From contig NZ_JALHMP010000007.1 in NCBI RefSeq assembly GCF_022843985.1, forward strand, positions 62,001-126,000: a stretch of DNA of 64,000 nucleotides, in the 5' to 3' direction. Shown in pieces: positions 37,728-44,019 of the stretch (within the stretch, counting starts at the first letter, position 1; each line of letters begins with the position of its first letter). A program made the translations under genes and the position numbers. Origin of the DNA: Phreatobacter sp. GTDB lineage: Bacteria; Pseudomonadota; Alphaproteobacteria; Rhizobiales; Phreatobacteraceae. Under the pieces are notes generated by a model, which was not told the DNA's origin, made no database searches, and saw only the letters and a list, made by a program, of their open reading frames with translations.

Positions 37728-37743
37728 CGGCCTCTCCGGTCAG
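37724..37743. terminator. Weak hairpin between convergent yggS and the ROK gene
   Basis: CTGACGG and CCGGTCAG can pair with one bulge, covering both stop codons of the convergent genes. It is a plausible but weak bidirectional terminator. Confidence 0.25.
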
Positions 37744-38831
37744 TCCTTGCCACGATTGACGTAGGTCGCGTTGCCAAGGCCGGTGCCGATGGTGACGACG
37801 CCCCATTCCTTCGCGTCCTGCATGTCCGGAACCTCGCTGAGGCCCTGAACCACGGCGTCGTTGTGCACGACGATGACGGTCTCGTGGCCCCCGATTTCGG
37901 GAATTGCCTTGGCGAGGGCAGCCGGCAGGTTGAAATGCTCACTCTCCCAGGTGCCGCCGGGCAGGTTCTGGCCGCCGCGGTCGATGGACCCGTCCGTCCT
38001 GATCAGGCCCGGGCAGCCGATGCCGATGATCGGGGCAAGCGTCAGGCCCTCTTGACCCGCCTTGCTGATCAGGTCGTTGAGCATGGCCGCCAGCTTCTCG
38101 ATGGCGGCGGTCCGCGAGGGCTCGTCATCGGCATGGCGCCAAAGCTCCGACGTCCGCACCTCGGCCTTCGACAGGTCCCTGGCCTTTTTCATGTGGAGGT
38201 CCACCAACCCGGCGCGGATGTTGGTGCCACCAATATCAACGGCGAGGATGGCGTCATGGCCCGCCAGCGTCCAGGCGGGCATGAGGTGGGCCGCGCCGAT
38301 GAGGCCGGCCTCGTCGGGATGATGGCGGATGGGTTTCAGGTCCACGTCGATGCCGTCCGCCTTGAGCAGAATGTCGGTTCGGGCGATGGCAAGCTCGCCG
38401 ATGCGGCCGCCACGGAATCCGCCGCCGACGGCAATTCGCTTGACGTTCTGCCACGGCTTGGTGCGGCGAAAGCGGCGGATGACGCCGGCAAGTTCCTGGG
38501 CGAAATCCTCGATGGCACCGAGGACGACGGCGGCTGCCTCCTTGTCCTTACCGTGCATGGCCTTGTCGAGCCGCTTCTTGGTCAGCTCCGCCGTCTCGAC
38601 GTCGCCGAAGGGATCGGCATCGCATTTGCCGAGCCTCTCGCGCCAGTCGTCAAGCTTCGCGGAAAAGGCGCGCTTGCTAGCGCGGTCGCCGATGAAGCCC
38701 TCCTTGTCGCGCAACTCGAGATTGTAGCTGGAGATGGTAACCGACGGCAGTTGCTCGGCGCCGTGGCTGGCGATCGGTTCCCGCGTTCCATGCACCTTGC
38801 CTGATCGCTTCGTTGTCGCCTTGGCCATCAT
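37740..38831 (-). CDS. ROK-family sugar-kinase-like protein with lobes in permuted order
   Basis: A 363-residue protein. Residues about 85-185 read like the C-lobe of a ROK kinase: a helix AVVLGAIEDFAQELAGVI, adenosine motif KRIAVGGGFRGG, then HHPDEAGLIGAAHL. The N-lobe follows: phosphate-1 loop LAVDIGGTNIRAG (about 197), IIGIGCPGLI, VVHNDAV, and phosphate-2 loop VTIGTGLGNA only about 13 residues from the C-terminus. In standard ROK proteins the order is the reverse. The zinc CxCGxxGC motif is absent. Start 38831 fits the EcfG-type promoter just upstream; the longer track start does not. Kinase activity and substrate are unknown; glucose or trehalose-derived sugar is a guess from context. Confidence 0.8.
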   Translation of the reverse strand: MMAKATTKRSGKVHGTREPIASHGAEQLPSVTISSYNLELRDKEGFIGDRASKRAFSAKLDDWRERLGKCDADPFGDVETAELTKKRLDKAMHGKDKEAAAVVLGAIEDFAQELAGVIRRFRRTKPWQNVKRIAVGGGFRGGRIGELAIARTDILLKADGIDVDLKPIRHHPDEAGLIGAAHLMPAWTLAGHDAILAVDIGGTNIRAGLVDLHMKKARDLSKAEVRTSELWRHADDEPSRTAAIEKLAAMLNDLISKAGQEGLTLAPIIGIGCPGLIRTDGSIDRGGQNLPGGTWESEHFNLPAALAKAIPEIGGHETVIVVHNDAVVQGLSEVPDMQDAKEWGVVTIGTGLGNATYVNRGKD

Positions 38832-38858: not shown

Positions 38859-38883
38859 AACGTGCGTCCCGGTCCCGCGTTCC
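38859..38883 (-). promoter_or_regulatory. EcfG-type (general stress sigma factor) promoter for the ROK gene
   Basis: Read on the minus strand, the sequence is GGAAC, 16 bases, CGTT, an exact match to the alphaproteobacterial EcfG consensus GGAAC-N16/17-CGTT. It lies about 28 bases upstream of the ATG at 38831, a normal promoter distance. It would put the gene under the PhyR-NepR-EcfG stress response. Confidence 0.65.
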
Positions 38884-38915: not shown

Positions 38916-38940
38916 GGAACCAAACGGCGACCCGGGCATT
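38916..38940 (+). promoter_or_regulatory. Weak EcfG-like promoter candidate upstream of otsB
   Basis: GGAAC (38916-38920), 16 bases, then CATT instead of CGTT. The -35 is exact and the -10 has one change. It points toward otsB, 110 bases downstream, and lies opposite the exact EcfG site of the ROK gene. Trehalose genes are often EcfG-dependent, which makes it worth listing. Confidence 0.3.
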
Positions 38941-39049
38941 GTTAGGTCATTGGGTCGAATTAAAGGTGCGGTATTTCCGTGTGGTTTCTGCTGTCCGGTT
39001 CTGGGTTGAACACGGTCCGGGCCGTGTCCCGCATCCATGGGTCCGGCGC

Positions 39050-39829
39050 ATGCGCGTGAGACCAAGTGCGCATCCGGTCCTCGCCGAGCTTGTGGCACAG
39101 ATCACCGCACGGCCCGATCGCTACGCCCTGTTTTCCGATTTCGACGGGACGCTCGTCGAGATCGCCGACCGGCCGGATCAGGTGGTGGTTCCCGCCGATC
39201 TTGCAATCAATCTGCGACGCGTGTGGCAGATGTTGGGTGGTGCGCTGGCCATTATCACCGGGCGTCCGTTGCGGCAGGTGGAGGCCTATATCGGCGCTGC
39301 CGGGCTGGAGGCCTCCGGCCTCCACGGCATCGAGTTCAACTTTCCCCTGACGGCAGGCGGCTCCCCACCGGCGCCGCAGGCGCCCCGCGCGCTGGTGAGC
39401 GAAGTGGTGAAGGTCGTGGCCGCGGAGCCCGGTTTTCGCCTTGAGAACAAGGGCGCGATCCTGACCGTGCATTTTCGCCAGGTTCCGGCGGCTGGCGGGC
39501 GGCTCAAGGCTGCGCTCGAGGCCATCATCGAGCGCCTGAAGCTCGACCATCACCTTAAGGAAGGCCGCGCCGTCATCGAGATCATCCCCAACGGCACGTC
39601 CAAGGGTACGGCGCTCGCCGAGTTCCTGCGCCGCACCCCCTATGCCAGCCGCATTCCCGTGATGATGGGCGACGACAAGGCTGACGAGGATGCCTTCGCC
39701 GTCGCCCACGAGGCTGGAGGTCTCGGCCTGAAGGTCGCCGGCGAACATTTCAGGGTGGGCGACGAGCCCTTCCGCCATGCCGGCGAGGTGCGAGCCTTCA
39801 TTGCTGCCCTTGCCGCTCACAGCCGATGA
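39050..39829 (+). CDS. otsB: Trehalose-6-phosphate phosphatase
   Basis: A 259-residue HAD phosphatase that dephosphorylates trehalose-6-phosphate. Motif I is FSDFDGTLVEIA (nucleophilic Asp), GALAIITGRPL is motif II, and motif IV is MMGDDKADEDAF; SGLHGIEF is typical of OtsB. I prefer ATG 39050 over the track start at 38939. It heads the otsB-GH15-otsA cluster. Confidence 0.92.
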   Translation: MRVRPSAHPVLAELVAQITARPDRYALFSDFDGTLVEIADRPDQVVVPADLAINLRRVWQMLGGALAIITGRPLRQVEAYIGAAGLEASGLHGIEFNFPLTAGGSPPAPQAPRALVSEVVKVVAAEPGFRLENKGAILTVHFRQVPAAGGRLKAALEAIIERLKLDHHLKEGRAVIEIIPNGTSKGTALAEFLRRTPYASRIPVMMGDDKADEDAFAVAHEAGGLGLKVAGEHFRVGDEPFRHAGEVRAFIAALAAHSR

Positions 39830-39845
39830 CAGCGAGGCGCAGCCG

Positions 39846-41651
39846 ATGACAGAACCCCAGCCACCTCACAAGCGCCTCGCCCCGCCGTCCATGGCGATCA
39901 TCGGCAACAGCACGATGGCGGCCCTGATCGATCAGAAGGCGCGGATCCTATGGACCTGCTGGCCGCGGATCGACGGTGATCCGCTGTTCTCGGCGCTCGT
40001 CGGCGGCGCCGATCCGCAGCGCGGTTTCCTGGCGGTAGAGCTGGAGGGTATGACCGCGTCCACCCAGTCATACGAACGCAACACCGCCATCCTCGTCACG
40101 GTGATGACGGCGGCTGACGGATCAGCGATCCGGGTCACCGACTTTGCGCCGCGTTTCAAACAACATGACCGCATCTTCCGACCGCCGATGATTCTCCGAC
40201 GGATCGAGCCGATCGCCGGGACGCCGCGTGTCAGGGTGAAGATGCGGCCGACCATGGCCTATGGCCGCCATGACGGCCGGCCGATTCCCGGCTCCAACCA
40301 TATCCGCTACGTCTCCGAAGCCGGCGCTGTCCGCCTCACCTCGGACATACCGGTGGCCTACCTGTCATCCGAGGCGCAGTTCGTGGTCACCCGGCCGATG
40401 ACCATGATCATCCATGCCGACGAGACTTTCCCCAATTCGATCGAGGACGTCTGGTTCGCCTTCCTGCGCTCGACCCGGCAATACTGGCTCGACTGGGTGC
40501 GCTACCTCTCCATTCCCTATGAGTGGCAGGACGCGGTGATCCGCGCCGCAGTGACGCTGAAACTGTGCTCCTGCGAGGAGACAGGTGCCATCGTCGCTGC
40601 GCTCACGACGTCCATTCCCGAAGCGCCAGGCACCGGGCGGAACTGGGATTACCGGTTCTGCTGGCTGAGGGACGCGTATTTCACCGTCCACGCATTGAAC
40701 AAGCTCGGCGCGACGCTGACGATGGAGCGCTTCCTCGACTACATGCGCTCGGTCATCGCGGCGGAGAAGGGGCCCTACCTCAAGCCCGTCTACGCGATCG
40801 TGCCGGAACAATCGCTGCACGAGTGGATATCCGAATCTCTCCCAGGCTTCGACGGCGACGGACCGGTGCGGATCGGCAATGCCGCGGCCGAGCAGGTCCA
40901 GCATGACGTTACCGGCAGCATGATCCTGGCGGCGTCGCAGATGTTCTACGATCACCGCCTGCCGAAGCTCGGCGACGCCGCGCTGTTCCATGAGTTGGAG
41001 GTCCTTGGCGAGACGGCGGCCACCATGGCCTTCGAGCCTGATGCCGGCATCTGGGAATATCGCGGTCGCCGGGCGATCCACACCCATTCTGCGGCCATGT
41101 GCTTCGCCGCCTGCGACAGGCTGGCCAAGATTGCCGAGCGGCTCGAGCTCAGGATCCGGCAGGATTACTGGCAGACCCATGCCGAGCGGATCCGAGCCGC
41201 GATCCTGGAGCGGTCCTGGAACGAGGCCCAGGGCTTCTTCGCAGCTAGTTTCGATGGTTCAGGCGCCGATGCAAGCACGCTGCTTCTCCACGAACTGGGC
41301 ATCGTCGAGGCGAGCGACCCACGCTTCGTGCGAACCGTGGAGGCGCTGCAGAAGCGACTGACACGGCAGGGTTACTTGCTGCGCTACGACGACCGTGACG
41401 ACTTCGGAACGCCGTCAACCTCCTTCACCATCTGCACCTTCTGGCTGGCCGACGCGCTCTATGCCATCGGCCGCGTCGACGAGGCGCGGGCGATCTTCGA
41501 GGCGCTTCTGGCTCGCCGCAACCATGTCGGGCTCCTGTCGGAGGACATCGACCCTGAGAACGGTGATCTCTGGGGCAATTTTCCGCAGACCTATTCGATG
41601 GTCGGCATCATCGTCACGGCCATGCGGCTGTCGCGCGACTGGGTTCACTAG
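39846..41651 (+). CDS. Glycoside hydrolase family 15 protein (glucoamylase/trehalase-like)
   Basis: A 601-residue GH15 enzyme. An N-terminal beta domain (YGSTSL-like AIIGNSTMAALID) precedes the (alpha/alpha)6 barrel with GTGRNWDYRFCWLRDAYFTVHAL and a C-terminal LLSEDIDPENGDLWGNFPQTYSMVG. As I recall, many homologues read SEEIDP there, so the Asp is notable. No signal peptide, hence cytosolic. It lies 16 bases after otsB and before otsA, a frequent arrangement. Likely substrates are trehalose or a short alpha-glucan. Confidence 0.9.
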   Translation: MTEPQPPHKRLAPPSMAIIGNSTMAALIDQKARILWTCWPRIDGDPLFSALVGGADPQRGFLAVELEGMTASTQSYERNTAILVTVMTAADGSAIRVTDFAPRFKQHDRIFRPPMILRRIEPIAGTPRVRVKMRPTMAYGRHDGRPIPGSNHIRYVSEAGAVRLTSDIPVAYLSSEAQFVVTRPMTMIIHADETFPNSIEDVWFAFLRSTRQYWLDWVRYLSIPYEWQDAVIRAAVTLKLCSCEETGAIVAALTTSIPEAPGTGRNWDYRFCWLRDAYFTVHALNKLGATLTMERFLDYMRSVIAAEKGPYLKPVYAIVPEQSLHEWISESLPGFDGDGPVRIGNAAAEQVQHDVTGSMILAASQMFYDHRLPKLGDAALFHELEVLGETAATMAFEPDAGIWEYRGRRAIHTHSAAMCFAACDRLAKIAERLELRIRQDYWQTHAERIRAAILERSWNEAQGFFAASFDGSGADASTLLLHELGIVEASDPRFVRTVEALQKRLTRQGYLLRYDDRDDFGTPSTSFTICTFWLADALYAIGRVDEARAIFEALLARRNHVGLLSEDIDPENGDLWGNFPQTYSMVGIIVTAMRLSRDWVH

Positions 41652-41679: not shown

Positions 41680-41781
41680 CTGATCTGCTCACCGGACTGC
41701 CCGCTTCGGGTGGTCCAACCAACCAAAGGAGGGGGTAAGCCGGGCTGCTGACAGGGCGTCCCGGTGCCCGGATCGGATCCG

Positions 41782-44019
41782 ATGAAGCAACTCACCCGAG
41801 GCGCAGTGGTCATGGTCTTGGCCACCCTGGTTCTGGTCGGTTTTCTTGCCGCTCTCGTGCCTCTGTCGAATTCCCTGATCGAGCAATGGGCTCGGCGCGA
41901 CCTGGAACTGAGATCAGAGCTGGTATTCAACTCGATCCGGGATCGGGTCGAGCGGGAGATCGCCGGGCAGACCCAGCAGCTCGTGCCCTTCTTCGAGCGA
42001 CTGACGGCCGATGAGCGGATCATGGCGCTCGGCCTCTGCGATGGGGGCGGCCGCATCACCGTCGCCACATCGAGGATGCCGAGTGGTCTCGATTGCCGCA
42101 TCCCCGCAGCCATCGAAGAGGCGCCGTTCCAGGCGCGTTTCATCCGCACCCGCGTCGCTGGCGAGCGCTTGCTGATCGGCGTCTTCCCCCTTGCCGTTGC
42201 CGGCCAGCCGGCCAGTCTGATCATCCTGCACGAACTTGGCTTCGTCGCCGACCGCATTGGCGAGGCGCGGTGGTATCTCGTCATCGTCGGTCTCGCCTTG
42301 CTGCTGCTGGTCGGTGCGGTCGCCTCCCTGATCGTCGGCCTGCTGCAGCGCCGCTACATGAGCGCGGTCCTCGCCAGCATCCAGGACCTGAAGGCGGGCA
42401 GGGCGTCCCGCCCGCGCGGCGTCATGGATCCCGGCGTCCAGGAGGAAAGCCGCGAGATCCGCGGCCTGCTGCGCGATTTCCGCGAGAAGATCCGCCAGGA
42501 GGACGGCACGCCGATTGAATGGTCTCCCGCGACGCTGCAGGATCTGCTGGAGAAGGAACTGCCCGACGCCGAGGTCTTCGTCGTCTCCAACCGAGAGCCC
42601 TATATCCATAACCGCGACGGTGACAGAATCGTGGTGCAGCGGCCAGCCAGCGGGCTCGTCTCGGCGCTGGAACCCGTCATGCGCGCCTGTGGCGGCATCT
42701 GGGTGGCGCACGGGTCGGGCTCCGCCGATCGCGATACCGTCGACGCCAGTGATCATGTCGCCGTGCCACCCGCCAAACCGGCCTATCGCCTCCGCCGTGT
42801 CTGGATCACGGAGGAGGAGCAGGAGGGCTATTACTACGGCCTGTCCAACGAAGGTCTGTGGCCGCTCTGCCACCTGGCCTATGTCCGCCCGATCTTCCGC
42901 GATGGCGACTGGCAGCAATATGTGGCGATCAACCAGCGATTCGCCGACGCGGTGGCGCGCGAGGCGACGCGGCCGGACCCGATCATCCTGGTCCAGGACT
43001 ACCATTTCGCCCTGCTGCCACGGATGATCCGCGAACTGCTGCCGAAAGCGACCATCCTGACCTTCTGGCATATCCCCTGGCCGAACGCCGAGGCTTTCGG
43101 CATCTGTCCATGGAAGGAGGAGATCATCGCGGGCCTGCTTGGCTCAACCGTGCTCGGTTTCCACACCCAAGCCTACTGCAACAATTTCTTCGAGACCGTC
43201 GACCGCTTCATGGAAAGTCGCATCGATCGCGAGCACCGTTCCGTGGTTTTCGGCGGCGAGGAGACCATGGTGCGGCCCTATCCGATCTCGATCGAATGGC
43301 CGCCAGCGGCCCTTCTGTCGCAGCAGCCGGTCGCCACCTGCCGTCAGGTGGTGCGCGAACGCTACGGTCTCGGCCCCGACATGAAGATTGGCGTCGGCAT
43401 CGAGCGTTTCGACTATACCAAGGGCATTCTCGACCGGCTCCAGGCCATCGACGAGCTGCTCATCCGCCGGCCCGAATGGAAGGGGCGCTTCACGTTCATC
43501 CAGATCGTCGCGCCGACCCGCTCGAAACTGACGAGCTATACGGCGCTGCAGAAGCACGCCTTGCGCATCACCGCAGAGGTGAACGCGCGCCACGGCAGCG
43601 AGGGCTACCAGCCGATCCACCTCGTCATCCGCCACCACGAGCCGGAAGAGGTCTATGAACTGTTCCGTGCGGCCGATCTCTGTGTGGTCTCCAGCCTGCA
43701 TGACGGGATGAACCTCGTGGCCAAGGAATTTGTCGCGGCGCGCGACGACGAGCTGGGCACGCTCGTCCTGTCCCGTTTCGCGGGGGCCTCGAGCGAACTG
43801 TCAGAGGCGTTGATCATCAATCCCTATGATGTGCAGGGCATGGCGGAGGCCATCGGCCGTGCCCTTGTCATGGGCGAGCCCGAGCAGCGCGAGCGCATGC
43901 GCCTGATGCGCAGCCATGTACGCGAGCGCAACGTTTATCGCTGGGCCGGCCAGATCCTCCTCGACGCGTCGCGTCTGCGTAAACGCCGGCGGGTGCAGGA
44001 ATTCCAGATCGGCGAGTAA
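41782..44019 (+). CDS. otsA: Trehalose-6-phosphate synthase fused to an N-terminal two-TM sensor-like module
   Basis: A 745-residue protein. Residues 7-28 and 164-187 are TM helices flanking a periplasmic domain of about 135 residues; a HAMP-like helical linker (190-240) leads into a GT20 synthase from about 262. Catalytic landmarks are [50 protein letters not shown] and [13 protein letters not shown]. It makes trehalose-6-phosphate from a nucleotide-glucose and glucose-6-phosphate. Standard OtsA is a soluble enzyme of about 470 residues, so the front half is extra and resembles the input half of a chemoreceptor or histidine kinase. ATG 41782 chosen over GTG 41764. Confidence 0.92.

Follow-up and report, generated by a model that had tools for sequence, protein, structure and literature searches.

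Can the two lobes of a ROK sugar kinase occur in nature in exchanged order within a single chain? The question is raised by a gene on the minus strand of the window (the whole stretch of Phreatobacter sp. DNA that was analysed, 64,000 nucleotides), whose product carries the motifs of both ROK lobes with those of the C-lobe in front, and which the original prediction took for a ROK protein with permuted lobes. We conclude, with a probability of roughly 97%, that this protein is a natural circular permutant of the ROK fold, and we regard it as likely that it is at once a permuted ROK fold and an active kinase. The gene and the parts of its product are listed here with the evidence for each.

37740..38831, minus strand: circularly permuted ROK-like kinase gene, 363 aa (open frame, 141 distinct full-length homologues, purifying selection)
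38265..38774, minus strand: residues 20-189, the large-lobe half, which is C-terminal in ROK proteins and comes first here (hhalign to ROK profile, helix/strand pattern of the model)
37743..38264, minus strand: residues 190-363, the half that is N-terminal in ROK proteins (small lobe as far as phosphate-2) and comes last here (Pfam ROK, hhalign)
38406..38432, minus strand: residues 134-142, adenosine motif AVGGGFRGG (sequence; GGG 136-138 invariant in 141/141)
38283..38315, minus strand: residues 173-183, ROK-type C-terminal helix ending DEAGLIGAAHL (sequence; model helix 172-180; aligned at the end of the ROK profile)
38208..38237, minus strand: residues 199-208, phosphate-1 loop DIGGTNIRAG (sequence; D199, G201 and G202 invariant)
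37857..37865, minus strand: residues 323-325, catalytic-base motif HND (invariant in 141/141; equivalent of PsNagK D105, PMC10031466)
37767..37787, minus strand: residues 349-355, phosphate-2 loop GTGLGNA, near the C-terminus (sequence; G349-N354 invariant)

Reading frame and motif order

The 363-residue frame lies inside a longer one that starts with GTG at 39098, and the start conserved in the family fits an ATG at 38831 or 38828. A comparison with the relative in genome G002 gave a pN of 0.093 against a pS of 0.405 (dN/dS ~0.17), pointing to purifying selection, with both halves of the gene alike in pN/pS; for the plus-strand ORF at 37863-38804, which is the antisense frame of the kinase gene, we found no support. 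The swapped order could in principle have come from a frame error, a misassembly or a chance order of motifs in an ordinary ROK gene. Nothing was found in favour of such an artefact, and it is ruled out, its probability being negligible: 141 distinct proteins from independent assemblies share the order, and the gene is under purifying selection.

Along the chain the adenosine loop (134-142) and the C-terminal-helix ending (173-183) precede phosphate-1 (199-208), followed by HND (323-325) and phosphate-2 (349-355, almost at the end of the 363 residues), so that each motif lies where the original prediction had put it and the order of C-lobe then N-lobe is conserved throughout 141 distinct full-length homologues. 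This conservation set has 46–85% identity to the window protein, and its invariant residues comprise D199, G201-G202, D325, T350, G349-G353, G136-138 and N289-P291. Regular expressions recovered the motif order in 107 and 108 of the 141 members, figures that are an undercount, as the failures examined were NIR/NVR/NMR/NLR variants or had a variant C-terminal-helix motif; alignment columns rather than regular expressions are the valid test of motif order. The predicted loss of the zinc motif was likewise borne out: no member has three or more Cys within residues 1-80 (0/141), and only six have any Cys there. The Glu of GExGH and the Glu of GCxE, which contact the sugar in ROK kinases, are not kept as such, and H23 and D49 may be their stand-ins. 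W231, R232, W295 and F300, near the expected sugar site, are conserved family-wide, and T203 is replaced by Arg in three of the 141 members.

Profile comparison with unpermuted ROK proteins

A Pfam search with the window protein matched ROK over residues 196-359 on profile positions 2-141 of 294 (37.6 bits, cut-off 22.9), and 27 of 31 family members matched the same model at E 0.1 or better. Swapping the halves of the single sequence made this Pfam match no longer than before, and the C-lobe half alone gave no Pfam match above cut-off; because the C-lobe is too diverged for a Pfam search with one sequence, we turned to profile-profile comparison. The query, a profile of 31 relatives of the window protein, was compared by hhalign with a reference profile of 329 positions built from 22 unpermuted ROK proteins (E. 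coli NagK, Mak, NanK and a C-terminally truncated AlsK, together with ROK proteins of the window genome and its relatives). In native order the query aligned with one lobe only (score 62.4, 142 columns, ROK positions 18-161), whereas with the halves swapped at residue 189 it gave the single, nearly full-length alignment that the original prediction had anticipated (score 104.1, 282 columns, ROK positions 24-322 of 329, E 4e-14). Taken separately, residues 20-189 matched ROK positions 224-322 (score 56.5, E 7.5e-8) and residues 190-363 matched positions 24-161 (E 1.7e-8). When the cut was moved in eight-residue steps the score rose from 62 to 104 at cuts 189-197 and dropped on either side, and when the columns of the first half were shuffled (60 shuffles each) it reached at most 22.7 for that half alone and at most 64.2 behind an intact second half. 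The swap test, the rotation scan and the shuffle controls therefore identify two ROK halves in exchanged order.

Predicted fold and a route to the permutation

The AlphaFold2 model of the native chain, made with a 31-member alignment, is confident (mean pLDDT 87.2, pTM 0.85), with pLDDT below 50 at residues 1-19 only. Foldseek searches of the PDB with this model aligned single ROK kinases over ~165-180 columns, that is one lobe (e.g., 2yhy, TM 0.42 of target, rmsd 2.6; 3r8e, 2qm1 and 3vov alike), and placed tandem human hexokinases at the top with ~420 columns at 30 Å rmsd. Such a match is what a sequential aligner yields if the order C-lobe then N-lobe of the query is met in the C-lobe of half 1 and the N-lobe of half 2, across the tandem junction. 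This pattern, one lobe of a single ROK kinase and a span of a tandem hexokinase, agrees together with the confident model with the earlier proposal that the first ~185 residues form an ASKHA C-lobe, and the prediction is that the permuted chain still adopts the two-lobe, ATP-binding shape of ROK kinases.

NagK has both of its termini in the small domain, the C-terminal helix being counted as part of the N-terminal domain (PMC10031466), and therefore a short linker can join the old termini. The sequence shows such a linker at about residues 184-194, joining the two former ROK termini of the small lobe, and new termini opened in the large lobe. The original prediction had set the cut just after phosphate-2, a position that holds broadly and is refined here to a point beyond the strand that follows phosphate-2 and ahead of the GExGH/zinc region. 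The structural zinc site, made up of a His and three Cys and characteristic of ROK kinases according to PMC10031466, was lost along with the permutation.

Family and distribution

Of 12 genomes from the window's family, nine have a relative, the one in G008 being a fragment; relatives were also found in 27 of 199 genomes of its order, in 16 of 385 of its class and in 23 of 399 of its phylum, five of the last lying outside the class. The G008 fragment (contig C36, ~1501-1860) is a decayed copy, its first ~80 residues joined to its last few, which adjoins otsB and GH15 genes and still has an EcfG motif upstream. Scanning contigs of species genomes with the single protein gave no match; with the alignment as query, at least 419 species-level contigs were found to encode a relative, mostly from alpha-proteobacteria. 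The best 80 of these at least 419 relatives include Bradyrhizobium, Rhizobium, Sinorhizobium, Phyllobacterium, Shinella, Roseomonas, Rhodoplanes, Alsobacter and Afipia. Also among them are Peristeroidobacter, a gammaproteobacterium, two MAGs with Gammaproteobacteria in their titles, and a record titled Frankia that looks like contamination or a mislabel. The permuted kinase is present on pSymB of Sinorhizobium meliloti and pRL10 of Rhizobium johnstonii 3841. In such model rhizobia, sequence records name it just 'ROK family protein' or 'hypothetical protein', or have no gene at the place in the PLSDB table, and the S. meliloti 1021 record has no annotation at the position of the kinase.

Trehalose genes and a stress promoter

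In the window the kinase gene is divergent from otsB, which is followed by a GH15 gene and then otsA, and a promoter motif of the sigma-EcfG type lies upstream of the kinase gene.

38859..38883, minus strand: sigma-EcfG-type promoter motif GGAAC-N16-CGTT upstream of the kinase gene (motif match, ending 28 bases ahead of the start codon at 38831)
38939..39829, plus strand: trehalose-phosphatase OtsB, divergent neighbour (NCBIfam T6PP 120 bits, cut-off 68; start codon uncertain)
39777..41651, plus strand: GH15 protein, closest to alpha,alpha-trehalase TreH1 (NCBIfam NF041084 E 9.5e-87, below the model cut-off; start codon uncertain)
41764..44019, plus strand: OtsA, trehalose-6-phosphate synthase, extended at the N-terminus by ~270 aa (NCBIfam TIGR02400 on residues 271-732, below cut-off)

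The GH15 product is matched better by archaeal trehalase models than by glucoamylase ones, and because a trehalase-like gene stands beside trehalose synthesis genes, the locus suggests a cycle of trehalose synthesis and breakdown. By eye, the extra ~270 N-terminal residues of OtsA contain apparent membrane helices and a HAMP-like stretch, and the enzyme may be membrane-anchored with a sensor-like front part.

Adjacency of otsB and the kinase gene recurs in most of the window genus, in three genomes from a different family of the order (G099, G159 and G132, the last also with otsA and GH15) and in Rhizobium, Metarhizobium and Shinella, including plasmids. We detected no otsB beside the kinase gene in Bradyrhizobium, Sinorhizobium, Phyllobacterium and other classes, and, if the window genus, Rhizobium/Shinella and one further family are set aside, most members lie away from otsB, which counts against a trehalose role; the neighbours outside the otsB lineages revealed no shared function. 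Locus L134, on a plasmid recorded for Roseateles sp. XES5 as an unverified organism, is labelled betaproteobacterial, its otsB-kinase pair is Shinella-like and its OtsB is 82% identical to that of Shinella, the organism being likely mislabelled. The kinase copies of L107 and L134 have further stress-type genes around them (DUF892; Ku and LigD), which fits general-stress clusters.

The promoter motif is that reported for sigma-EcfG1 of R. etli in PMC3892343. Among 67 family genes, 24 have a strict match in the 300 upstream bases, where the frequency in the remainder of these loci predicts 0.4; among 80 named loci, 25 have one (0.2 expected). The two sets overlap in part, and closely related species in them are not independent events. 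The carriers are nearly all the Rhizobium, Sinorhizobium and Phyllobacterium loci plus the window genus, and the strict motif is absent upstream of the Bradyrhizobium members of the 80 loci. The feature that marks the sigma-EcfG regulon, a promoter motif upstream that is conserved among orthologues, is thus present, and in several alpha-proteobacterial lineages sigma-EcfG probably drives transcription of the kinase gene as part of the general stress response. Together with the neighbouring otsB in several lineages, this resembles the sigma-EcfG general stress regulon with its otsA/otsB synthesis; word finds in the main texts of the papers searched gave no mention of a permuted ROK kinase.

Origin, activity and substrate

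Sequence alone cannot separate permutation by duplication and trimming from a fusion, in which halves from different genes, a C-lobe and an N-lobe, would work in a domain-swapped dimer, the protein then being no true intramolecular permutant. A search of 289 genomes with the swapped sequence returned no unpermuted close relative at E 1e-5, a result that a fusion would accommodate. However, the two halves together cover one ROK fold with hardly any gap or overlap, and in the monomer model (pTM 0.85) they pair within one chain, so we hold a fusion to be very unlikely. That a permuted ROK relative might have lost sugar-kinase activity and instead regulate trehalose or stress metabolism, or act there as a scaffold, is unlikely as well; the loss of the GExGH and zinc-ligand residues, the low-confidence N-terminal tail of ~20 residues in the model and the many members that stand alone among unrelated neighbours would suit such a role, but the protein has no DNA-binding domain, and the metal (D199), base (D325) and phosphate-2 (T350) residues are invariant in 141 members, which is unusual for a pseudokinase. 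These three residues correspond to D6, D105 and T132 of PsNagK, in which the mutants D6N/A and D105N lost activity (PMC10031466). Because D199, T350 and D325 are invariant and equivalent to these PsNagK residues, we infer an active enzyme: with its metal, phosphate and catalytic-base residues kept, the permuted protein is probably an ATP-dependent sugar kinase.

The simplest and likeliest reading of the substrate, taken from the neighbouring genes, is that the kinase phosphorylates glucose, set free by trehalase or imported, and so supplies glucose-6-phosphate for making and recycling trehalose under stress, an assignment that we make tentatively and at slightly less than even odds. An ordinary ROK kinase gene (L036) is also present in the window's genome and could be an alternative source of glucokinase activity, which counts against this role. 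The sugar could be other than glucose, because the Glu residues of GExGH and GCxE are not kept and T203 is Arg in three members. An active permuted kinase for another substrate, such as an imported sugar or trehalose (giving trehalose-6-phosphate, the substrate of OtsB), is possible though on the unlikely side: it would fit the pairing of the gene with the phosphatase OtsB, the conserved W231, R232, W295 and F300 near the expected sugar site, and the G108 gene, which has a sugar ABC permease immediately on one side and a HAD sugar-phosphatase-like gene on the other. Against trehalose itself, a kinase and an opposing phosphatase would be futile unless regulated, and we know of no ROK trehalose kinase. 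It seems quite improbable that this widespread permutation of an actin/hexokinase (ASKHA) fold made a specialised, stress-induced trehalose kinase working against OtsB on trehalose or trehalose-6-phosphate, the permutation itself altering the lobe hinge motion or the sugar site.

Relation to known kinases and significance

Like ROK sugar kinases (PF00480; E. coli NagK, Mak and NanK; glucokinases), the window protein has both lobes, the phosphate-1, phosphate-2 and adenosine motifs, the catalytic Asp in an ND motif and the C-terminal helix sequence, and its second half scores above the Pfam gathering cut-off. Unlike them, it has its halves swapped and lacks the structural zinc site, and a native-order search covers half of the model, not a co-linear full length. 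We accordingly file it as a permuted variant rather than a standard ROK member because lobe order and zinc site depart from the family; it has what defines a circular permutant, both halves being homologous to the parent fold and standing in swapped order within one chain of that (predicted) fold. Human hexokinase 2, among the top Foldseek matches, shares the ASKHA fold and as a tandem enzyme offers a C-lobe followed by an N-lobe across its halves, but it is a full tandem duplication of unpermuted domains, whereas the window protein is one permuted domain.

The original prediction knew of no described permuted ROK group, and our literature search, with subscription journals outside its coverage, likewise brought up no permuted ROK protein and no natural ASKHA circular permutant. 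As far as we could find, natural circular permutation of a two-lobe, substrate-closing kinase is undescribed, a claim of novelty bounded by that limited search. The permuted kinase tests how much the connectivity of the lobes matters for domain closure and catalysis, and its family spans hundreds of species of soil and root-nodule bacteria, including model rhizobia. The links to otsB and to the stress sigma factor suggest a role in trehalose metabolism that is open to rhizobial genetics at once.
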